From Acidisarcina polymorpha (lineage in GTDB: Bacteria; Acidobacteriota; Terriglobia; Terriglobales; Acidobacteriaceae): 64,000 nt of DNA. The notes beneath the pieces were generated by a model. That model was not told where the DNA came from. It ran no database searches and saw nothing but the letters and a program-made list of their open reading frames with translations. The first letter of the stretch is position 1. Each line of letters opens with the position of its first letter. The stretch spans positions 2,852,001 to 2,916,000 of the forward strand of contig NZ_CP030840.1 in NCBI RefSeq assembly GCF_003330725.1, given 5' to 3'. Position numbers and translations under genes: made by a program. This document shows, one piece after another, positions 3,433 through 14,153 of the stretch.

Positions 3433-3456
3433 GCGAGTGGAATCGTTACCATTCGC
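3433..3456. promoter_or_regulatory. LacI-type operator between lacI-like gene and GxGYxYP gene
   Basis: A 24-bp imperfect palindrome whose core TGGAATCGTTACCA (3438-3451) fits the LacI/GalR pattern TGNAANCGNTNNCA with a central CG. Flanking GCGA (3433) and TCGC (to 3456) extend the symmetry. It lies in the divergent gap between the regulator (start 3328) and the GxGYxYP gene (start 3536), so one site could control both. Near copies occur at 2059 and 2081. Confidence 0.65.
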
Positions 3457-3535
3457 GTCCGCGAACCGCTTCGCGGACTTCCGCTTCTCGGCCCAGGGCG
3501 GCAGAGAAAAACGCTTCCTATCGCAGAGGAATTCT

Positions 3536-5551
3536 ATGTCTATCTCCCGCAGGACCTTCCTGACACTGAGCGGCGCCGCCACTGGAGCAAGCGCGTTGCG
3601 GGTTCCGGCTTTAGCGCAACCCGACGATTACACTTCGGATCACGGCCTCTATTGGCCGCCGAATCAGGCGCTGCCGATTTTTCCGGAGGCTGTTCACTTG
3701 GATGCCGCCGATCTAACCGCGCTCGACGGCGACCAGCAAGGGTTGCTGGTTTCTCTCCAAGGGATTGTTAACCGCCGTCGGCCCCGACTGTATTTTTACT
3801 GGGGCACGGATCCCACCAACCTCGAGTGGCTCAAAACTATCCGCGTAAGCTCGACGATCTCCAAGGATCCATGGTCGCTGTTCGAAAGGTATCGCGACGA
3901 AGTGAAAGGCGCGATCGTCTTTGACCCAAACGTTCCAGACACCATCAACCTGGCGACGACATTGGCCGGTATGTGCAGGGCGGTGATCGCAACCGCGGAG
4001 CTTGCGGCCGCCCACAACCTGCCGGTAATTGAGGACCTCCGCAGCCGCTTCGCGGACAAATTTGCCGTATACAACTACGCGCTGAGCGAGGTGTGGCCAA
4101 AGTGACCAGACGGATGGCCACGGCGATTAGCCCGTCGACTACTCAGCAGGTGGCTAACCTACCATGGACCACTCTGCTCGAAGTTACAGCCCCGGTTACC
4201 GACGCGTCGAACAAAACCACGTATACCGTGGACCTCTCTCCGTTCCTTAGCGGCGGTCCTTCCGTCTATGTGAGATACCAGGATGCTTACTCGAATACGG
4301 GCTGGGGGCCTTCGGTCTCGCAGGTGACGGTGACAGCGGATGGAAATGCGATCGCGTCCTTCCAGCCAGGCACCCCGGCGGAGACCTTTCCTCTTTGACG
4401 CGGACGGTTCGCAGCTAGCATCCGGATGGCGCTTCGCGGATGGCACAAACTATTTTATTTACAAGTTCACGCCGCCCGCCGGTACCAAGCAACTCACGCT
4501 TTCGACCCTCATGTGGAACCAGTATCTCCTGACCGCGACCAACACCGCCCCAAGCTACCAAGTGGTGAATCCACTCTTTCGCGATTACATTGTGGCGAAC
4601 TCGGCGCCGGTGTTCTGGCTCGATCCCAATGTAACCGAGGAAGCGGCCCTGTTCGCGAAGATCCTAAACATATTCGATCCAGACACTGCTTACCTTGGTT
4701 GGTTCCCGAACGGCGACGAGATGCCCGGCGTCACACTATGTGCGCAGAATTCCGCCTACGTTGTGGCGGCCGACGTTTTTTACAACGCCACAGCTTTTAG
4801 CGGCGTGCGGGCCCCGATCCGCCGCACCCAGCCTCCGGCGATCGTTCCGCAGCTCCAGAGCAAGATTTATCTCGCCCTTATCATGGTGGAAGGCGATAAC
4901 ATCCAATACGACCAGCATCGCATGCGGCAGATGTGGGACGATCCCACCCGCGGTCAGGTGCCGCTTGGCTGGAGCATCAGCGTGCTGCTGCGGGACATCG
5001 CGCCGTCGATGCTTTCCTATTATCAGGAGACGCAGACGCCAAACGATCTTCTGGTAGCGGGGCCGTCGGGGGCCGGGTACACCTATCCTGCCATGTGGCC
5101 TAACTCGACTCTGCCCGGATACATGAAACGCACCGGCGAATACATGCGACGCGCCGGCATGCGGACCTTGTTTGCCTATAACCGAGATAACAGCACCGAT
5201 CTCGCTCTAACAACTGGCCTGGTGGATCTCTATAAGTCGAATATTCCAGGGCTGGAGGGAATCGTGTATAACTACGAGACTTCAAGCCAGGTAAGCCTGA
5301 TCGACGATCTGCCGGTGGCGACACTGCTGGGCGTTAACGATACATCGAGTGGAGTTCCGGCGCTGACGGCGATTGCGGAGAATTGGAGCGGAACAGCGCC
5401 TCTCTTCGTGGCCGCGGGACTCGAATCGTGGAACATGATGCCAGCGGATGCGCAAACGCTGGTCAATTCACTCGGACCGCAGTTTGAAGTCGTGCGATTG
5501 GATGTGTTCTTTCGACTGACGAGAGCCGCCCTCTCTAAATCGCAACACTGA
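3536..5551 (+). pseudogene. Tat-exported GxGYxYP-family putative glycoside hydrolase, two frameshifts
   Basis: Secreted carbohydrate-active protein of the GxGYxYP family, named for the motif seen here as GPSGAGYTYP (about 5060-5090). ATG at 3536 follows AGAGGA and starts a Tat signal (SISRRTFLTLSGAATG...ALA). The frame is lost at about 4100 (WPK then stop; VTRRMATAISP continues in the next frame) and restored at about 4390 (ETFLFDADGSQ). The first is a missing base in an AAGG run and the second an extra T in a TTT run, so the net frame is unchanged. Between ATAISPSTTQQ and PLFRDYIVANSAPVFWLDP sits about 110 residues of beta-rich sequence that looks like an inserted carbohydrate-binding-type domain. 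The compensating indels point to read errors more than decay. Confidence 0.8.
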
Positions 5552-5584: not shown

Positions 5585-5946
5585 GGCCTCAGAGTATCCG
5601 AGATATCACACCGAAAGTTGAGGAGGCGAGGAAGGGTCTCCATGTCGGCGTCAGCGCTCTCGACCAAAAGGAAGTCCGGCGACTGGACGCTCGACAGCAG
5701 CCAGGGCCAGGCGTCCTCGGAAATAGCGATCGTCATTCTTGTTTCAGATGGGGGCATCGATTGAACGGATCATCCACAACCGACGTCGATTCCGACAAGG
5801 TCCGGCGGATGGATCATCATCTCCACCTTTTGGAGGACGCGTCCTGGTTGATAGGGAGTTAATATTCTCTCGCGGACTCGCGGCGTTGTTAAATATCGCT
5901 GGTTGAAATGCTTTGCCGAGTTCGCGAATTCCTGGAGGCACTCCCC
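5585..5946. other. Intergenic, no convincing gene
   Basis: A 57-codon minus-strand frame starting near 5739 (MTIAISEDAWPWLLSS) has coding-like composition but runs into the 5555-5584 hairpin and matches no family I know. Nothing else is supported here apart from the ribosome-binding site of the next gene (GGAGG at 5934-5938). Confidence 0.4.
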
Positions 5947-6531
5947 GTGGCTTACATCACTTTGCCAATTGCCGAGCAGTTGGGCCGGGAATTTCCTGGT
6001 ATCGTCGGGCCGATGACCTTTCGTCCGGAAACCGCTGCTCCTATCAATGACCTGGTTAATATCCTGCTGCGAGGGGAAAGTACCCTCACTCCGGGGGAAC
6101 GCGAGCTCATCGCCACTCATGTTTCCTGGCGCAACGATTGCTTCTTCTGCCAGACCATTCACGGCGCAGTCGCCGCAGCGCAACTCGGCCATGATGAACA
6201 ATTGGTGCAGACGGTCAAAACAGACTGGATCAACGCCGACATCAGCCCCAAGATGAAAGCTCTCCTAAACATCGCCGGGAAAGTCCAGATCGGCGGTAAA
6301 CAGGTGATAGAAGACGATGTCGCAGCCGCGCGAGCTGAGGGCGCCACCGATCTCGAGATTCACGATACCGTCCTGATTGCGGCTGTCTTTTGCATGTGCA
6401 ACCGCTATGTCGACGGTCTCAACACCTGGGCGCCGACCGAGATGAATATTTACCGCGCCAATGCGGCGCAGATCGTGGCACGGGGATACTCCGCTGTGAC
6501 TGAAACCGCTATAGCAAAGGCGTCTCGCTGA
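5947..6531 (+). CDS. Carboxymuconolactone decarboxylase / AhpD-like peroxidase-related protein
   Basis: AhpD-fold protein, family role being disposal of peroxides through a CxxC centre. GTG at 5947 is chosen because GGAGG lies 8 bases upstream. A longer reading from 5908 has no such site. The motif CFFCQTIHG places cysteines at about residues 65 and 68 and the histidine at 72, the arrangement used by AhpD-like enzymes, and a helical bundle follows (EGATDLEIHDTVLIAAVFCMCNRYVDGL). About 194 residues. The next gene (DinB-like) is 54 bp downstream with a hairpin between, so co-transcription is possible but not assured. Confidence 0.85.
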   Translation: MAYITLPIAEQLGREFPGIVGPMTFRPETAAPINDLVNILLRGESTLTPGERELIATHVSWRNDCFFCQTIHGAVAAAQLGHDEQLVQTVKTDWINADISPKMKALLNIAGKVQIGGKQVIEDDVAAARAEGATDLEIHDTVLIAAVFCMCNRYVDGLNTWAPTEMNIYRANAAQIVARGYSAVTETAIAKASR

Positions 6532-6584: not shown

Positions 6585-7196
6585 ATGCTCGGTGCGACCG
6601 GCAGGTATCTCGACTTCACAGACCGCGTTCCGCTGGCAAAGACAGCTGAGCTGTCAGAAGCGTCGTTAGCGGTGGATCTCGAGGCAAAGCAGCTTTGCAC
6701 TGGGCTGACTGAAGAAGAACTCACTTGGAGACCTCGGCCGGGAAAATGGTCCGTCGTCGAAAATCTCTCGCATCTCCGTGCAACTACCGAGGTCTTTTTA
6801 CCCGTCGTAGATTGTGCCCTGGAGGCAAGCAGGACTATGGGGCTGCGTAGTGAGGGACCATTCGCACTGAGCCCCTTAGGTCGCCTCATCGTCTGGCGAA
6901 TGGATGCGCGGCCCGTGATCAAAATGCGAGCTCCAAAGCCACTACAGCCACGATTGCTAAGTTCCGCTGGATCAGAGTTGGACCACTTTCTGAGCTCGCA
7001 GGCCGCCCTTAGAGAGCGCATCGAGGAAGCGAACGGCTTAGACCTGACCGCTTGGCGATTCACCTCTCCGGTCGCGAGCTACTTTCGCGTGAACCTGCTG
7101 GAGTTCTTCTCTGCATTCAATGCACACTCTCGGCGGCATATCTGCCAGGCTAGCAACGTCCGAAGGGCCCTGCTTACAGATGCGCGGCGTCCCTAG
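6585..7196 (+). CDS. DinB-like four-helix-bundle protein
   Basis: DinB/YfiT-like protein. Members are four-helix bundles that bind a divalent metal through three histidines; many act in thiol transfer or detoxification, but the substrate here is unknown. Supporting sequence is LTEEELTWRPRPGKWSVVENLSHLRAT near the N-terminus (typical WSxxEhLxHL of the superfamily) and FNAHSRRHICQASNVRR near the C-terminus, giving candidate ligands in SHL and HSRRH. GGGAGAGCAAG precedes the ATG at 6585. Length (203 residues) is normal. Follows the AhpD-like gene in the same direction. Confidence 0.8.
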   Translation: MLGATGRYLDFTDRVPLAKTAELSEASLAVDLEAKQLCTGLTEEELTWRPRPGKWSVVENLSHLRATTEVFLPVVDCALEASRTMGLRSEGPFALSPLGRLIVWRMDARPVIKMRAPKPLQPRLLSSAGSELDHFLSSQAALRERIEEANGLDLTAWRFTSPVASYFRVNLLEFFSAFNAHSRRHICQASNVRRALLTDARRP

Positions 7197-7292
7197 GCCT
7201 AACGCCTCTTAATTAGATATCGGGTGTACTTTACAGCGTATTACCATGCGTAATGAGGGTTAACTCAACCTTAGAAATTGATAAGAACGCTT

Positions 7293-8606
7293 GTGCAAGA
7301 CAAGAAGGATAATTTCGACGTAACTGTTATCGGTGGCGGCCTCGCTGGCATGTCGGCTTCGATCCATTTAGCGAATGCCGGCTTGAGGGTTCTCTGCATC
7401 GAGGCCGATCCCCTCGACAAGGACCCTGTCGGCGAGTCGTTGGATTGGTCAGCCCCCGATCTGCTGAAAGCTCTCGGACTGCCAACGGAGTATTTGCTCG
7501 ATCAAGGCATCGCCACTTATAAGCGGCACGTCATTTTGAAACTCAGGAACGGTTTGGAGCGGCACTATGTTCCTGGCGAGTGGTTAGGAAAACCACCCTA
7601 TAACGTGAATCTGCGCACCTTGCATGTTGATCGCAGCGAGCTGAACCAGGCTCTTCGTGAGATCTTCATCGGCAAGGGCATTACTCTGATCAACGACAGG
7701 GTGGCGCATGTGGAGACCACCGGCAGAGTAATTAAAGCAGTGGTCACCGCTCAAGGTGAGCGCATCACCTCGAAGTGGTTTATCGACGCATCGGGCTCCA
7801 GCGCTGGTTTATTCCCCCGAACATTTAACTTGCCCGTGTATGAGTACGGCCCGCATAAGGTGGCAATGTGGGATTACTTCACAGTCCCAGAGTCTATTGA
7901 AGGAACCACACTTCACGCCGATGGTGCTGGGCCCCCATATATGGAATGGGTCTGGCAGATACCAATTCACCCAACTATCATCAGTGTCGGCTACGTCACT
8001 ACAGGGGAGGCGGTGAAAGAGAAACGGCAACAGGGACTGAGCGTAGGAGAGATCTTTGCGGCGCAACTGCAACGATTCCCCGACCTGCAGGGTTTCCTGC
8101 ACGAAACGGGCAAAGATCAGCCTCGAACAACATCCTTTCGCTGCCGTGTCTTCGCCAAGGTTGCTGGCCCCAACTGGCTGGTTGCGGGCGAGGCTGCGGC
8201 CATGGTCGATCCGATGACCTCTAATGGAGTGACGGCTGCTTTGAGGCACGGAGCTGAGGCATCAAGCCTGATCATCCAGAATCGAAACAGGGAGAGACTT
8301 CCGCGTCTGGCTGCGGCAATGTACAGCCAGCGGGTCTTGAGCCTTGCAAGATTCTTCAATAGCGGCATTGAGAATGTGCTCTACGATTGGCCGATCAGGA
8401 ACCGCATCGGCGCCTTCAACGCCGGGGACCTCTACACTATTCCTGCCTGGAGCATGAACGTTGTCTACTCTCGATTGCGGCCGCAGGGATTGATAAAGAC
8501 GACCCTGCTTCGCCTGTTGCTGGCAACGCTAAGGTATTCCCTCGACGCCTTTCACTGGTTTTGCAAACGGACTCAGTCACCTCCGGCGGCGGCGACCGCG
8601 CCATAG
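7293..8606 (+). CDS. FAD-dependent halogenase-like oxidoreductase
   Basis: Flavoprotein of the tryptophan-halogenase branch of the group that also holds geranylgeranyl reductases. GGGLAGMSAS near residue 15 is the FAD dinucleotide-binding loop. WVWQIP at about residue 218 fits WxWxIP, the motif that separates flavin halogenases from monooxygenases. ATYKRH puts a lysine at about residue 77, where the catalytic Lys79 of PrnA lies. GEAAAMVDPMTSNGV is the second FAD motif. GTG at 7293 is used as start; a TTG at 7278 is also open and neither has a good ribosome-binding site. Halogenase activity is inferred from motifs; an unrelated FAD oxygenase cannot be excluded. A reductive-dehalogenase-like gene lies 3.4 kb downstream. 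Confidence 0.72.
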   Translation: MQDKKDNFDVTVIGGGLAGMSASIHLANAGLRVLCIEADPLDKDPVGESLDWSAPDLLKALGLPTEYLLDQGIATYKRHVILKLRNGLERHYVPGEWLGKPPYNVNLRTLHVDRSELNQALREIFIGKGITLINDRVAHVETTGRVIKAVVTAQGERITSKWFIDASGSSAGLFPRTFNLPVYEYGPHKVAMWDYFTVPESIEGTTLHADGAGPPYMEWVWQIPIHPTIISVGYVTTGEAVKEKRQQGLSVGEIFAAQLQRFPDLQGFLHETGKDQPRTTSFRCRVFAKVAGPNWLVAGEAAAMVDPMTSNGVTAALRHGAEASSLIIQNRNRERLPRLAAAMYSQRVLSLARFFNSGIENVLYDWPIRNRIGAFNAGDLYTIPAWSMNVVYSRLRPQGLIKTTLLRLLLATLRYSLDAFHWFCKRTQSPPAAATAP

Positions 8607-8870
8607 AGCGCCTTTCACGGCAATCACTTGATCGTTTTCTGTTCTGCTCTTACTTTTAGGCGACTGGCGTCCGCTTTAGAGAAATACAAGCCGTCTCCCC
8701 CGAACAGCCACCATAACCCCATAGGCTCTCTCCATCTTAGGTATTACTCAGACATCCTTCCCAGGGATGTGGTGGCTTCCGTTCGCATCCCTCATAATGC
8801 CGTGTGACAGCTACAAACCTGCACATTCTTCCAACTTGCACTTCTCAATGAATTACTTCGAGGCCATCCA

Positions 8871-11800
8871 GTGACTAGCGTGTACCATTCCTTCACTCAG
8901 AATTCCGTGCGGAATAATCTTCGCGGCGCCCTTTCCCTCGCCTACTCTCTTACGCGTCGGAGTCTTCCATTACTCCTGTTCGCGACAGTAGCTATCTCTT
9001 CATCGCTCGGCCAACAGTTCGCAACGCTCAAGGTCAATGTCGTCGATCCATCAGGTAGCTTCGTCGCGCAGGCGAAGGTCGCGGCTGTCAAAACTGATAC
9101 TGGAGTTGTTCGCGACGGAGTTTCCGACAAAGCGGGCAACGTTGTCATTCCGGGCCTTTCAGCCGGACAGTACACGTTGACCGTGAATGCTCCTTCTTTT
9201 GCTCCTTTCGAAGTGCCGTTGGTGTTGACATTGGGGCAGATCGCTGATGTGCGGGTGCCTTTGCGCATTGTTGGAGCGACCGAGCAGGTGGAGGTCACGG
9301 AATCGACCCAAGGAATCGATCGGGAGCGGACTGTGGGAAGCCAGGTCATCAATCCGAGGCAGATATCGAATCTTCCAATTTCCGACCGCGATTTTGTAGA
9401 CTTTGTATTACTCACGCCTACCGCTACCGTCGGACGCAACACGAGCACGGGAGCCCAATCGGCATTTCAAGAATCGGTGCTCCAAGTTAGCTTCGGAGGA
9501 TTGCGAGAGACCCACAGCGTCCTTTATGGATTAGATGGGGTCGATTACACAACCACCGTCTCCGGAGTCCAGCGGGTAAGCCCGTCGCTCGATTGGGTGC
9601 AGGAGTTCCGAGTGGTCAATGGCCCGGATGCCGCAAGCGGCACACTCAATCTGGGTGCAGTGGTAAACACGATTACCAAATCAGGCACCAACGATTTGCA
9701 TGGTTCGCTCTACGACTACGCTCGCAACAGCGCGATGGATGCCAACAATTTGCTTTCCGCGCCGGGCTTCAACACGCTGCGCTTCAACCAGTTTGGAGCG
9801 ACTCTCGGCGGTCCTTTGCGCAGGGACAAAGCGTTCTTCTTTCTCGGCTATGAAGGACAGCGCCGCGCGGAATCGCCCATCTACTCTCATTTCATTTTGA
9901 AGTGCATTGACACTCAAGGCTGCCTGGGGCCCGGCACACCCAGCATCAATCAGATCAAACAGGACCTGGGCCTGTCGCCTGAGAACCTCGGCTCCCTTTT
10001 GCTGATCAACGACTATGACAAGACCTTCGGGAAGCTCACCGATGTGATCAATGAACGGAGCACTCTGTCGGTCGGCTACCTCTACACGAACCTGAGAAAC
10101 GACGGCACGCCCGCGGCCTCTCCAGGGCAGGGGTTGCCTTCGAGTTACCGCCGAAATCCGATTCAGGATCAGACGGCTTATGGAAATTTATTCCATCTCT
10201 TCAGCCCTGCATTTACTTCGGAAAGTTCTGTCGCCTTCGGGCGGCGGGTGTTCTTTATGAACCCGGTCGGCGCCGGCTACGAGCCTGCCATCGATGTCGC
10301 TGACACGCTCTACAGTGGTGGATTTCTCGGCGGCGTCGATTACTATCGCGAGATTTATTTCCCCGTTACGCAGGCCATGACTTACACACGCGGTGCTCAC
10401 ACCATCAAGTTCGGGGGTGGCTTTGAGCCTATATGGTTCGCGGCACAGACGCCATACTTTACTCCGGGCGTGGGGATCTTTAGTCCACAGAGCTTCTTTG
10501 GCGCGGGGCAATTTGCGGGGTTTGGTCCAGGAACGGCGGTGGAGTTCCTCTTCCAGCAGACCCGGGCGGATTTTGGCACTCAAGTTCCGCAACGCAATCT
10601 GCCCTTTGAAGGTGGCTTTTACGACGGACCGAATGGACCGGCCCATCAGGCGGCTGACCAGGTAGCGTTTTGGCACAAGCTGGCCGGTTTTTATATTCAA
10701 GATCAGTGGAAGGCGCTCCCGACTCTGACGCTCTCTTATGGGCTGCGTTACGACATCGATTTCCTTCCGTCGGCAAACGATCTCCGCATCATCGGCAAGA
10801 TGAACCCAACCAGCTTCGGAAATGTCCAACCACGTGTGGGACTGGCCTACTCGTTTCGTGAGGGAAAAGGGGTAGTACGCTCAAGCTTCGGTTTGTATAA
10901 CGGTTCGCTCGAATACAGCAGCCTGGTCAATGGATGGCATGGCGCAGCGCCGTTCACGACTATGAACCAACCGCTGATTCCGCAATTCGCCGATCCAGCG
11001 AACGATCTCGTTGGCTTTGGACCAGCAGGCATGGTTGGGACCGCCGGCCCGGTACTTGCGGGCGCGGCTTTTTCCAACTTCACCCATACCGGCACGTATC
11101 CAGTTCCTTCGATTTTGAAACAGTTTCCCCTCGGATTTACGCAGCGCAAGTTCCCCTTCAGTTTGTCAGAGCTTGGGACGTTGGAGATCGAAAATCAGCT
11201 GGGCGGCGGCTGGATTCTGACGCTGGGATACCGATACGTACATGCTTCACGGCTGTTGAGCTCCAACACAATAAATGGCGTTCCTGATGGTTTCCTCCCA
11301 GATGGCGTACAGAAGTTCCTGCCTGCCGATTCCAACTTTGGATTTGTTTTGTATGCAACTCCCTCTGGATGGTCGATCTATAACGCTGGCATTGTCAGCC
11401 TGCGCAAGGATTTTGCTAAAAACTATAGCGTGATGGCCAACTACGTATATGGCAAGTCCGTCGATGTGGCTACGGAAAACCAGCTGCAGGACGAACCGCA
11501 GGACTACCTCAACCCTGCGCTCGATCGGGCTGTGAGTGACAACGACGTCCGTCACCGGCTGGCATTGACGATTATGGCGCAATCACCAAACAACTGGGCT
11601 GCACCGTTTCGAAATTTCCAATTTTCGATACTCAATACCCTGCAAAGTCCTCAGTACTACAGCATCCTCGCAGGCTCCGACATCAATGGCGATGGTTTCC
11701 CGTTTAACGATCGCGTAGGGGGCATAGGTCGTAACAGCTATCGTGGGGACGCATACTACGATACCGATATCCGCCTGCAAAAGCTGTTGAGCGTAGGCGA

Positions 11801-12017
11801 ACGAGTCAAAGTGAATCTCAGCGCTGAGGTACTCAATCTGGTGAATCGCGTGAATGTGACGGATGTAGACCAGGTCTATGGCTCCGGAACGTTCCTCGGT
11901 CCGGTCCCGAAAGTCTATGGTGATGGCATCGGCAGCCCGGCCAATCCGACGTTCGGCAGTCCAACCTATGCGGCAGCAGCGCGACAGATTCAACTATCTC
12001 TAAAGTTCCAGTTCTAA
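8871..12017 (+). CDS. TonB-dependent receptor, Oar-like
   Basis: Complete outer-membrane receptor of 1048 residues. GTG start at 8871, signal sequence (LPLLLFATVAISSSLGQQ), then a carboxypeptidase-regulatory domain (NVVDPSGSFVAQAKVAAVKT), plug with DFVDFVLLTPTATVGR and GLRETHSVLYGLDGVDY, then a long barrel ending in an aromatic residue (RQIQLSLKFQF). It ends 14 bp before the reductive-dehalogenase-like gene, with AAGGAGA in the gap, so the two are almost certainly co-transcribed and the ligand may be a corrinoid or a halogenated compound. I looked in the 264-bp leader (8607-8870) for a cobalamin riboswitch and saw none. Confidence 0.93.
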   Translation: MTSVYHSFTQNSVRNNLRGALSLAYSLTRRSLPLLLFATVAISSSLGQQFATLKVNVVDPSGSFVAQAKVAAVKTDTGVVRDGVSDKAGNVVIPGLSAGQYTLTVNAPSFAPFEVPLVLTLGQIADVRVPLRIVGATEQVEVTESTQGIDRERTVGSQVINPRQISNLPISDRDFVDFVLLTPTATVGRNTSTGAQSAFQESVLQVSFGGLRETHSVLYGLDGVDYTTTVSGVQRVSPSLDWVQEFRVVNGPDAASGTLNLGAVVNTITKSGTNDLHGSLYDYARNSAMDANNLLSAPGFNTLRFNQFGATLGGPLRRDKAFFFLGYEGQRRAESPIYSHFILKCIDTQGCLGPGTPSINQIKQDLGLSPENLGSLLLINDYDKTFGKLTDVINERSTLSVGYLYTNLRNDGTPAASPGQGLPSSYRRNPIQDQTAYGNLFHLFSPAFTSESSVAFGRRVFFMNPVGAGYEPAIDVADTLYSGGFLGGVDYYREIYFPVTQAMTYTRGAHTIKFGGGFEPIWFAAQTPYFTPGVGIFSPQSFFGAGQFAGFGPGTAVEFLFQQTRADFGTQVPQRNLPFEGGFYDGPNGPAHQAADQVAFWHKLAGFYIQDQWKALPTLTLSYGLRYDIDFLPSANDLRIIGKMNPTSFGNVQPRVGLAYSFREGKGVVRSSFGLYNGSLEYSSLVNGWHGAAPFTTMNQPLIPQFADPANDLVGFGPAGMVGTAGPVLAGAAFSNFTHTGTYPVPSILKQFPLGFTQRKFPFSLSELGTLEIENQLGGGWILTLGYRYVHASRLLSSNTINGVPDGFLPDGVQKFLPADSNFGFVLYATPSGWSIYNAGIVSLRKDFAKNYSVMANYVYGKSVDVATENQLQDEPQDYLNPALDRAVSDNDVRHRLALTIMAQSPNNWAAPFRNFQFSILNTLQSPQYYSILAGSDINGDGFPFNDRVGGIGRNSYRGDAYYDTDIRLQKLLSVGERVKVNLSAEVLNLVNRVNVTDVDQVYGSGTFLGPVPKVYGDGIGSPANPTFGSPTYAAAARQIQLSLKFQF

Positions 12018-12031
12018 GGAGAGACATCGAC

Positions 12032-13153
12032 ATGCCGAACGCCCAAGCAAGCGAGCAGTCCATGCCCGAACAACAGGTCTCTGCGCGTGCCCGGCCGAAT
12101 CCACGACGCCCGAAACGAGGCACGTATAGACCTCAGCAGGAAACGCTCTCCCTGTTGAAAGTTTCGGGCAATTCCATCAACGGCCTTGGGGAAACAGCCG
12201 AGCGCCAGGCATCGCCCTTTTTCTGGCATCCTCCAACCCAGCATCCGTACGAGGAGTTGCAGAATCTGGCTCGTCGCAACTCGCGCAAGTGTCCGGGCTC
12301 AGCCGAGATCTTCATGGCGGCTTACACTCATCCGGAACTGATCTCCGTTGGTAAAACGCGAAGCGTGGCTACAGCCTCGGAGTTCACTGCCGATGCGACT
12401 GCTTTCGCGCTCATGCATGAGGCCGACGCGGTTGGGATCGCTCCGATGAATTCGCGATATGTCTTCGAGGGATACACAATCGAGGAACCCTGGGTGATTA
12501 TCCTCGCGCTCGGTCCCGACTATGAAAAGTTAAAGGAGGTTCCCTCGGACGAAACTAATGGGATCGGCGTCTGTGCGATCGGTGAGCAGTATGCCCGCGG
12601 CACCAGGTCGTCCTACGCCCTTGCGAATTGGATCCGATCTCAGGGATACACCGCAAATGCCTATCCAGGGCCGTCAGCGAGCGCCCTGCTGCTCATTCCG
12701 CCTGCCATTGATTCAGGCCTCGGAGAGCTCGGCAAACATGGATCGCTGATCAGCCGGCAGTTCGGAGCCGGTCTGCGCCTGGCCGGCGTCACCACCGAGA
12801 TGCCACTGATTCCAACCGCACCCGATCGGTTCGGGGCGGATGAGTTTTGCACCACCTGTCAGCTTTGCACTCGAGCATGCCCTCCGGGAGCGATTGCTGA
12901 ACAAAAGCAAATGGTGCGCGGCGTAGAACGATGGTATGTGGATTTCGACAAATGCATCCCGTACTTCGCCGAAGCCGCCTCCTGCGGCATCTGCATCGCC
13001 GAATGCCCCTGGACGAGGCCCGATGCACGACCGAAGCTGCTTGCGACGATGGCACAACGCATGGACTGGGCGCCCCAAATTCCGACGCCCGAGCCGAAGA
13101 AGGCCGACGTTCCTTCATCTCCACACCCAGAGGTCCAATCAGGCCGCCGGTAA
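12032..13153 (+). CDS. Reductive-dehalogenase-like cobalamin/4Fe-4S protein, cytosolic
   Basis: Catalytic-type subunit of the reductive dehalogenase family, which uses cobalamin and two 4Fe-4S clusters to remove halogen from organohalides. AAGGAGA precedes the ATG. The RDase core is visible: ADAVGIAPMNSRYVF, then SGLGELGKHGSLISRQFGAG, then cluster 1 CTTCQLCTRACPPGAI (Cys 273, 276, 279, 283) and cluster 2 with Cys 308, 318, 321, 325 (SCGICIAECPW). No Tat signal and no rdhB anchor gene are present, so it is not a standard respiratory enzyme. Epoxyqueuosine reductase (QueG) is related, but the GLGELGxHGSLIS block favours the RDase side. Follows the TonB receptor by 14 bp. Confidence 0.85.
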   Translation: MPNAQASEQSMPEQQVSARARPNPRRPKRGTYRPQQETLSLLKVSGNSINGLGETAERQASPFFWHPPTQHPYEELQNLARRNSRKCPGSAEIFMAAYTHPELISVGKTRSVATASEFTADATAFALMHEADAVGIAPMNSRYVFEGYTIEEPWVIILALGPDYEKLKEVPSDETNGIGVCAIGEQYARGTRSSYALANWIRSQGYTANAYPGPSASALLLIPPAIDSGLGELGKHGSLISRQFGAGLRLAGVTTEMPLIPTAPDRFGADEFCTTCQLCTRACPPGAIAEQKQMVRGVERWYVDFDKCIPYFAEAASCGICIAECPWTRPDARPKLLATMAQRMDWAPQIPTPEPKKADVPSSPHPEVQSGRR

Positions 13154-13559
13154 AGGCAGTCAGGCCCCGCATACTCGGATGGATACGTCTGGCAACTAAC
13201 CTTGCGTTCATCCGCACATTTAGTGATACTTCCCGCCGAGCGCTGAAAGACGTAAGAGCGGTAGGGAAGCTCTGGCGGTCTCTGAAGCGTGCCTATGGGG
13301 AAGAGGGTTCTATTGCCCGATGCGGGGAGTAGTCCTGGGATCGCTGAGGGACCTGGATGTTGATTCGCTTGCGCGGTGCTGCAATCCTCTGGGATGAGAG
13401 CGGTCTGCCCAAAATGCCGGAGTGGATCTCGCCATGCCGATAGTCTGGATCTGCCCAGGCTGGCCGATCTTTCCAACGCACGATGATGCAGCATGCCAAT
13501 GCGGTATATTTGATATCTTACGGATTGAAGTTAAAGAAGGAAAACAGGAGAAGTACCTC
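13154..13559. other. Intergenic, nothing recognised
   Basis: 406 bp with only short, family-less frames. It contains the leader of the YciE/F-like gene, with AGGAG before ATG 13560. No hairpin with a T-tract was seen after the stop at 13153. Confidence 0.5.
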
Positions 13560-14153
13560 ATGGCACTGAAGTCCGTTTTGATTGATGAGCTGCGGGATAT
13601 GTATAGTGCTGAGAATCAGTTGGTGAAGGCCTTGCCTAAACTTGCGAAGGGCTCCAAAAACCCTAAGCTAAAGTCAATATTTACGGCCCATCTTGCCGAG
13701 ACCAAGGGACAGATCGAGCGCTTGAAAAGGGTTTTTACGGAGCTAGGCGAGAAGCCAACGGGCCAGCACTGCAACGGTATGGAGGGGGTAATTGAAGAGG
13801 GCAAGGAAGCTCTGGAAAAGGACGAAGAGGGATCCTCCTTCGAGGCCGGCCTGATCGGCGCTGCCCTACGCACGGAACACTACGAAATAGCCGGCTATGA
13901 AGCCTGTATTTCTATGGCAACAGCATTGGCACTCCCTAAGATCGTAAAGCTTCTTAATTCCAACCTCAAGGAAGAGCTCGCGGCGGCGAAAAAGATCACC
14001 GCAGCTGGCGTCCCGATCCTGAAACTAAGTGCGAAGGAGCCAGAGGCGCCCAAGACACCGAAGACAGGCAAAGAGAAGTATTCAGCCAAAAAGAGTGAAG
14101 AGGACGAGGCGAAGGCGGCTCCCGAACTTAGCCCTTCCACTGCGACGAGTTAG
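13560..14153 (+). CDS. YciE/YciF ferroxidase-like protein (DUF892)
   Basis: Ferritin-like four-helix protein of the DUF892 (YciE/YciF) family, stress-induced in enterobacteria. ATG 13560 gives MALKSVLIDELRDMYSAENQ, the normal family start, after AGGAG. An upstream GTG/ATG extension of 46 residues is not family-like. ELRDMYSAENQL, HLAETKGQIERL, EHYEIAGYEA and LNSNLKEELAAAKK carry the Glu/His ligands of a di-iron site. The last 45 residues are a Lys/Glu/Pro-rich tail (KEPEAPKTPKTGKEKY), longer than in YciF, probably disordered. Function beyond stress or iron handling is not shown. Confidence 0.9.
   Translation: MALKSVLIDELRDMYSAENQLVKALPKLAKGSKNPKLKSIFTAHLAETKGQIERLKRVFTELGEKPTGQHCNGMEGVIEEGKEALEKDEEGSSFEAGLIGAALRTEHYEIAGYEACISMATALALPKIVKLLNSNLKEELAAAKKITAAGVPILKLSAKEPEAPKTPKTGKEKYSAKKSEEDEAKAAPELSPSTATS

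Follow-up and report, generated by a model that had tools for sequence, protein, structure and literature searches.

A compact reductive dehalogenase-like protein, here called RDH, is encoded directly behind an outer-membrane receptor gene in the genome of Acidisarcina polymorpha and, judged by its relatives and its predicted fold, looks like a member of a reductive dehalogenase (RDase)-like lineage not yet characterised. The main interest of the finding lies in this lineage and its receptor and transporter partners, with a function that is predicted. In our interpretation, to which we give about even chances, the gene belongs to a patchily distributed cassette for the uptake and catabolism of an aromatic acid or phenol, probably a halogenated one. 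The window, meaning the whole stretch of 64,000 nucleotides that was analysed (G000:C1:2852001-2916000 of the 7.6-Mb genome), carries a gene for a halogenase-like monooxygenase (HAL) dependent on flavin adenine dinucleotide (FAD), the receptor gene and RDH consecutively on the forward strand, separated by 264 bp and 14 bp. A preliminary description of the locus had reported this row of three genes, and the open reading frames (ORFs) were recovered as it gave them, HAL starting at TTG 7278 with GTG 7293 as an alternative start in frame.

7278..8606, + strand: HAL, FAD-dependent halogenase-like monooxygenase (Pfam Trp_halogenase 62.2 bits, cut-off 21)
8871..12017, + strand: Oar/TonB-dependent-type outer-membrane receptor with CarboxypepD_reg and beta-barrel (domain searches)
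12016..12021, + strand: AAGGAG ahead of the ATG of RDH, probably its ribosome-binding site; it overlaps the stop codon of the receptor gene (sequence)
12032..13153, + strand: RDH, compact reductive dehalogenase-like protein of 373 aa, apparently cytosolic (TIGR02486, fold, clade)

In the receptor, the beta-barrel model PF25183 (OMP_b-brl_4) scored 285.6 bits and PF13620 (CarboxypepD_reg) 54.2 bits.

Sequence and predicted fold of RDH

Sequence comparison and structure prediction group RDH, among the class III B12 enzymes, with the dehalogenases, in agreement with the preliminary description, where the protein was called RDase-like. The nearest solved proteins by sequence are the RDases 8q4h (E 5.5e-26), PceA (6.4e-24) and NpRdhA (1.5e-21), with QueG following at 1.2e-4. 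All 51 members of the compact family that were aligned match the RDase model TIGR02486 and, more weakly, the QueG model TIGR00276, which the window RDH matches with 44.2 bits (cut-off 200). The alignment (A3) comprised the window RDH and 50 of 73 other RDH genes, after exclusion of truncated, oddly started and near-duplicate genes, and a 37-residue fragment on G133:C75 was kept out of the RDH gene count. For comparison, the 51 sequences were aligned with 21 acidobacterial RDase rows (30 loci, from which 24 ORFs were extracted; 20 of the aligned rows over the curated cut-off and one, L190, below it), seven QueG rows (10 loci, nine extracted) and five of nine plasmid matches. The residues on which the comparison rests are the following.

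12590..12592, + strand: codon of RDH Tyr187, aligned to PceA Tyr246 and NpRdhA Tyr426
12776..12778, + strand: codon of RDH Arg249, aligned to NpRdhA Lys488
12848..12880, + strand: first 4Fe-4S motif, C273-x2-C276-x2-C279-x3-C283-P (sequence alignment)
12953..13006, + strand: second 4Fe-4S motif, C308-x9-C318-x2-C321-x3-C325-P (sequence alignment)

Both 4Fe-4S clusters ascribed to the protein earlier are thus represented by their motifs. Seven of the eight Cys positions are invariant in 51/51 family members, among them all four of the second motif, and C279 is found in 50/51, with Ser in one. The equivalences of Tyr187 and Arg249 with residues of PceA and NpRdhA were obtained by counting residues on printed alignments; PceA Tyr246 and NpRdhA Tyr426/Lys488 are what we take to be the active-site Tyr and its basic partner, and a K488Q variant is named in the title of a PDB entry. 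Tyr187 is kept in 51/51 compact proteins, 20/21 acidobacterial RDase rows and 5/5 plasmid RDases. Likewise, Arg249 is Arg throughout the compact family (51/51), and the position holds Arg or Lys in 20/21 acidobacterial and 5/5 plasmid RDases, L190 being the sole exception for both residues. In QueG the same position is Phe (7/7), while the catalytic Asp134 of QueG, named in the title of 5t8y, falls in a stretch where the QueG rows are unaligned with RDH.

An AlphaFold model of RDH, built from the 51 sequences, reached a mean pLDDT of 91.2 and a pTM of 0.85, its confident part ending at about residue 345, and was compared with solved structures by VIA-align. Matches to 17 RDase rows gave Z 26.7-28.3 over 267-294 aa: Z was 28.3 over 287 aa for 8q4h, 28.0 over 284 aa for NpRdhA (4ras) and about 27.5-27.6 over 280 aa for PceA (4uqu). 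The single core of RDH aligns to residues 280-592 of NpRdhA (4ras_C). The best QueG match of the model had Z 15.6 over 195 aa.

No twin-arginine translocation (Tat) pattern occurs in the first 60 residues of the 51 compact sequences, and no hydrophobic N-terminus was seen in the clade (best KD19 0.77). For the window RDH, the maximum KD19 of 1.09, and of 0.33 in the first 70 residues, revealed no N-terminal transmembrane helices. Behind the gene, open segments of at least 45 codons in 12901-13700 contained no rdhB-like small membrane ORF (maximum KD19 at most 1.35). Domain searches and the model showed neither a second cobalamin domain nor a fused reductase in the window RDH, and no phthalate-dioxygenase-reductase-like C-terminal domain appeared in the domain searches. 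The earlier statements that the protein lacks a Tat signal and an rdhB partner are upheld by these results, and RDH seems to be cytosolic and tied to the receptor.

Phylogeny and distribution of the compact lineage

In a quick IQ-TREE phylogeny of 84 rows, the compact proteins (51 rows, about 330 aa) formed one clade with an SH-aLRT of 99, and QueG (100) and four BhbA-type proteins (99) formed further clades. When the tree is rooted with QueG, the compact clade and the 26 other RDases come out as sister groups, although the join of those 26 has a support of only 89. The branch separating the compact clade from the RDases measures 1.5 changes per column, and the program warned that long branches meet, those of QueG and the compact clade among them.

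A QueG-type reductase was the outcome that the preliminary description had set against its own proposal. RDH shares the B12 superfamily with QueG, and the weak TIGR00276 matches of all 51 members could be read as a sign that it is a tRNA epoxyqueuosine reductase of this type or a QueG paralogue. However, the fold (Z 28 vs 15.6), the Phe that QueG carries in place of Arg249, the separate QueG clade in the tree and a true queG elsewhere in the genome (G000:C1:361819-362886, 307.7 bits, cut-off 200) all rule this identity out to the point where it is as good as excluded.

The compact lineage is not rare, as two peptide patterns only were enough to find 379 relatives of RDH in GTDB representative genomes. 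The records of the best 79 of these 379 loci are titled Acidobacteriota, Alpha-, Beta- and Gammaproteobacteria, with one Chloroflexota bin. In this subset, identity to the window RDH is 67-84% in Acidobacteriota, 63-69% in betaproteobacterial records and one Odyssella bin, 54-57% in Sphingomonas, Novosphingobium and Niveispirillum, and 44-52% in further proteobacterial records and the Chloroflexota bin; carriers include Edaphobacter lichenicola and two lichen bins. In a sample of 150 genomes of the order, RDH is present in 24, or in 23 once a 34% match (G068) is dropped. A second compact RDH with an open frame and 73% identity is found in the same A. polymorpha genome (L036, G000:C1:5788542-5789537). 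In one proteobacterial locus (L139 and L127), a pair of RDH paralogues is only a few kb apart, and the second copy of L139 has 37% identity to the window RDH and a long branch.

Spread of the compact RDH by plasmids was considered and is unsupported: the nine plasmid records that matched (identity 33-41%, query coverage 26-53%) are other RDase-type proteins. Of 297 Acidobacteriota genomes, 28 carry classical RDases that pass the curated cut-off; all 28 are outside the family of the window, which makes these RDases a second set, different from the compact RDHs. In each of two genomes, G187 and G376, seven RDase matches have an E-value of 1e-12 or lower, though not all of them reach the cut-off. 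Full-text searches turned up no description naming a compact RDase-like lineage, and one may still exist.

Comparison with known reductive dehalogenases

The published RdhA scheme distinguishes four subfamilies: a respiratory one, a transmembrane one and two catabolic ones, of which one has a reductase domain and the other does not; it attributes a vestigial duplicated cobalamin domain to the catabolic RdhAs (PMC10463259). The compact lineage fits none of the four. With the respiratory RDases (PceA; PDB 4uqu, 8q4h) it shares the corrinoid/iron-sulfur fold at Z 27-28 over about 280 aa, the Tyr, the Arg and both 4Fe-4S motifs, but RDH has no Tat signal, no rdhB was seen, identity is 21-26%, and its neighbourhood is catabolic and not respiratory. 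The catabolic RdhAs (BhbA of Comamonas sp. 7D-2, NpRdhA, JtRdhA) are likewise cytosolic and linked to aromatic degradation genes, and NpRdhA has Lys488 where RDH has Arg249. In contrast to these proteins, RDH has neither the vestigial second cobalamin domain nor a reductase domain and falls into a separate clade, and its 373 aa compare with 1069-1072 aa for the BhbA-type plasmid proteins (n=4). Transmembrane RdhAs are marked by N-terminal transmembrane helices, which RDH does not have. QueG belongs to the same cobalamin superfamily and also has two 4Fe-4S motifs, but its structural match to RDH is far lower, Phe replaces Arg249, and the genome has its own queG. A TonB-type transporter, which the BhbA cluster would need, was not seen in the annotated pBHB stretch, which has porins and an incomplete gene table.

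Linkage of RDH to receptor and transporter genes

The neighbourhoods of 25 RDH loci were examined, 24 fetched and the window, with about 10 kb on each side where available. In the window, two genes precede HAL:

5908..6531, + strand: CMDa, AhpD/carboxymuconolactone decarboxylase (CMD)-like protein with CxxCxxxH (TIGR01926 91.2 bits, cut-off 81.8)
6585..7196, + strand: DinB-superfamily protein (PF12867 49.9 bits)

Across the 25 loci, a monocarboxylate-type transporter of the major facilitator superfamily (MFS) was found at 17, CMDa at 12, a second CMD at 10 and HAL at six. The receptor type of the window is present at eight, once as a remnant (L057), and other receptor types occur at further loci. 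The motif CxxCxxxH is kept in 15/15 CMDa genes.

Oar-type receptors are very numerous, with 155 first-look candidates in the A. polymorpha genome. The mere presence of a receptor next to a gene therefore carries little weight, and linkage has to be counted at the level of orthologues. Close receptor orthologues (at least 69%) were found in eight of the 150 genomes, all eight with RDH (hypergeometric 9e-8), and in seven of the eight cases they lie within 10 kb of it, where fewer than 0.1 would be expected. Within the same distance of RDH lie 15 of 30 MFS genes (0.09 expected) and 6 of 19 HAL genes (0.06 expected). These figures are descriptive, as they ignore common descent, depend on the chosen E-value limits and take four genome-wide searches as covering the same 150 genomes. 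The pairing of receptor and RDH is more than chance, since orthologues of both recur together in other genomes.

The preliminary description had asked about conservation of the three-gene order. The adjacent order HAL-receptor-RDH recurs in Acidobacterium sp. S8 (G073), but in no other genome among the 25 and the 79 loci, and as a general feature it was rejected. An order unique to this genome, which the preliminary description had named as refuting its idea, is thus avoided only by a narrow margin. The three genes stand on one strand with intervening genes and another receptor type at L047/L092 (one genome) and at L105.

The three genes could also be neighbours by chance in an Oar-rich genome, with unrelated roles. 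The abundance of receptor candidates, the adjacent order in two genomes only and a second RDH copy without such neighbours speak for chance, but we regard it as very improbable in view of the linkage of receptor, MFS and HAL orthologues to RDH (shared ancestry uncorrected), the 14-bp gap between receptor and RDH, and the situation in Sphingomonas and Niveispirillum, where a receptor, RDH and a transporter again occur together although the families of receptor and transporter differ. At Sphingomonas loci L121 and L123 and in a Niveispirillum bin (L120), a TonB receptor, RDH and an MhpT-like 3-hydroxyphenylpropionate transporter follow each other in this order; one member per cluster was scanned, with 162.9 bits for TonB-siderophor (cut-off 223.5) and 353.9 bits for MhpT (cut-off 410). 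Nearby genes at other proteobacterial loci encode HpaB-like and 3-hydroxybenzoate-6-monooxygenase-like flavoproteins, an LLM monooxygenase and a GMC oxidoreductase; the scanned proteobacterial neighbours score under the equivalog cut-offs, and only their class is safe. That a receptor, an organic-acid carrier and an RDase-like enzyme are found together in two phyla, although the receptors and carriers are of different families, is the best hint of a common job, which would be to take up an aromatic acid or phenol and process it reductively.

The halogenase-like neighbour

7947..7964, + strand: WxWxIP motif of HAL, W224-P229 (sequence alignment)

HAL resembles flavin-dependent halogenases (Bmp2, Mpy16, PltA, FasV, CmlS) in its FAD fold and in WxWxIP, but differs from them in that FxxPxxSxG is not kept, the lysine is not secure and the neighbours look catabolic. 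The family comprises 19 sequences with 36-89% identity to the window HAL and keeps an ATxKRH motif; W224, W226 and P229 are found in 19/19 and I228 in 18/19. FxxPxxSxG is a motif of flavin-dependent halogenases and is present in the four solved halogenases that were aligned with HAL. In the HAL family it is broken, with M in 10, Q in seven and L in two sequences at the F position, and S in 11, G in seven and A in one at the Ser position. K82 is present in 19/19, and the invariant His84 fills the column of the lysine common to the four solved halogenases in three MAFFT modes. As FxxPxxSxG is not kept, HAL is not filed as a halogenase, and its standing as a proven halogenase was not accepted.

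The HAL model is of middling quality (pLDDT 68.7), and its C-terminal helix is mildly hydrophobic (KD19 1.01). Its best structural matches were Bmp2 (Z 32.9), FasV (32.5) and Mpy16 (31.9), with CndH also in the leading group (31.7-32.9). As a control, hydroxylases and other flavoproteins likewise gave Z 28-31, and a dehydrogenase-labelled flavoprotein (31.1) and the monooxygenase PqsL (30.1) came close behind. The sequence of HAL is compatible with a halogenase as well as with a hydroxylase, and its usual neighbours, described next, would fit a catabolic monooxygenase at least as well.

The steadiest partner of HAL is an Asp-nucleophile-type alpha/beta hydrolase (ABH), which lies beside it at 12 of 19 loci, including L046, L047 and L058; it was found at 9 of 13 HAL loci without RDH in the stretch and at three of six with RDH, and not in the window. 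Its motifs, the elbow VGHD[AG]G and HG[MI]PT, are kept in 12/12. One member scored 65.7 bits against the haloalkane dehalogenase model PRK03592 (cut-off 241), and ABH lacks the Asn/Trp that presumably bind halide in haloalkane dehalogenases; it was not accepted as a dehalogenase. An MFS protein like aromatic-acid/H+ symporters (one member scanned, 128.6 bits, cut-off 418.55) occurs at three of the 19 HAL loci, two of them also with ABH. At three of the 19 loci (L060, L068 and L069, the second HAL locus of A. polymorpha and those of two relatives), HAL has selA, selB and a selD-like AIRS gene no more than a few kb away, which may reflect a link with selenocysteine genes or a common site of insertion.

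The halogen-adding chemistry that the preliminary description saw at the locus is not supported, in view of the broken FxxPxxSxG, the insecure lysine and the ABH neighbours. The description had further suggested a possible cycle, in which a metabolite would be halogenated by HAL, recovered by the receptor and dehalogenated by RDH. Such a cycle could draw on the halogenases Bmp2, FasV and Mpy16 as best structural matches, on WxWxxP in 19/19 HAL sequences and on the co-localisation of HAL and RDH above chance. It is not supported, however, and improbable in our view, considering the motif defects and His84, the occurrence of HAL without RDH in 7 of 17 HAL genomes, the 13 of 19 HAL genes not within 10 kb of RDH, and the window itself, where none of the 10 neighbours scanned looks biosynthetic.

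Proposed function and alternatives

In the cassette that we propose, the outer-membrane receptor would import a scarce aromatic acid or phenol, and transport across the inner membrane would fall, at most of the related loci, to an MFS carrier of the monocarboxylate or aromatic-acid type. In the cytoplasm, RDH with a corrinoid and two 4Fe-4S clusters would reductively remove a substituent, which is most likely a halogen; Tyr187 would donate the proton and Arg249 would line the pocket. A general ferredoxin or flavodoxin could deliver the electrons, as no reductase is fused to RDH or seen adjacent to it. HAL, an FAD enzyme of predicted halogenase fold, would most likely oxygenate a related substrate, and the AhpD-like proteins may act downstream or protect. 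In regard to the cofactor, MetH (1208 bits, cut-off 1010.85) and CobQ (511 bits, cut-off 309.9) exceed their cut-offs in the A. polymorpha genome, which indicates that corrinoids are used and probably made there. A halogen as the leaving group is suggested by the kept active site and by the substrates of all characterised catabolic RdhAs, which are ortho-halophenols (PMC10463259).

Several observations weigh against this interpretation. A halogenated substrate is implied by no computed result, and no electron donor was recognised beside RDH. The score of RDH against TIGR02486 is 102.5 bits, under the cut-off of 160.35, and PF13486 leaves the protein unmatched at E 0.01; with these curated thresholds missed, RDH is filed as a sister lineage and not as a member of the curated RdhA subfamily. 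The MFS carrier common at RDH loci is absent from the window locus, its nearest homologue in the genome lying elsewhere, and the second RDH of this genome (L036) has GcpE as its neighbour, while neither HAL nor a CMD, MFS or receptor gene was recognised in the 18 kb around it. MFS and CMD occur without RDH at six of six further loci (L202-L207), which were chosen as far from RDH among the 15 MFS genes that have no RDH within 10 kb; two of them also have a recognised receptor and a second CMD, and one is in the A. polymorpha genome near 2.21 Mb. CMDa, which is also found at loci lacking RDH, has genes of its type in 50 of the 150 genomes, over twice the RDH count, which argues against a tight unit. 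The six chosen loci show RDH to be an optional part of the module, but its frequency cannot be read from them. Finally, broken or partial RDH copies were found in G018, G030, G088 and G073 (second copy), and this decay, along with the patchy presence, suggests a niche trait gained and lost.

It is also possible, though on balance unlikely, that RDH is a corrinoid enzyme of RDase fold that removes another group, such as a hydroxyl, methoxyl or epoxide, from aromatic acids. The long branch of 1.5 changes per column, the family-specific N-terminal motif SPFFWHPP of the compact clade and proteobacterial neighbours that indicate ordinary aromatic catabolism would agree with such a reaction, but the dehalogenase Tyr and Arg/Lys are kept in 51/51, and to our knowledge the QueG reaction is the only other well-described one in the superfamily. 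A related and rather unlikely option is that the compact clade constitutes a separate class of corrinoid reductases in soil and marine-type bacteria, with its own reaction on receptor-imported aromatic acids, namely the reductive removal of a group that is not necessarily a halogen.

Other features of the window

The DinB gene is also in place in Acidobacterium sp. S8, and its membership in the proposed cassette is doubtful. Further upstream lie a GxGYxYP hydrolase in two frames and a LacI regulator, and downstream DUF892, TetR, hydrolase, LysR and NmrA genes, all of which give no sign of belonging to the cassette. The putative GxGYxYP glycoside hydrolase gene (3437-5551) looks frameshifted, with its N-terminal domains at 3437-4105 and the third and C-terminal domains at 4340-5551 in another frame. 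Rfam at gathering scores returned no corrinoid riboswitch or other RNA element in positions 1-30000 of the window.

Significance

A single-domain enzyme of 330 residues would be an easier model than the membrane-associated or 1070-residue RDases. Many carriers of the compact RDH are aerobes, and its pairing with a receptor, which recurs in relatives, could let ordinary aerobic bacteria degrade natural halogenated aromatics. If RDH dehalogenates, it would provide abundant soil and marine-type bacteria with a route to remove natural organohalogens. If it does not, a new B12 reaction would be involved, and should the compact clade prove to be a separate class, the superfamily would gain a third physiological branch beside the dehalogenases and QueG.

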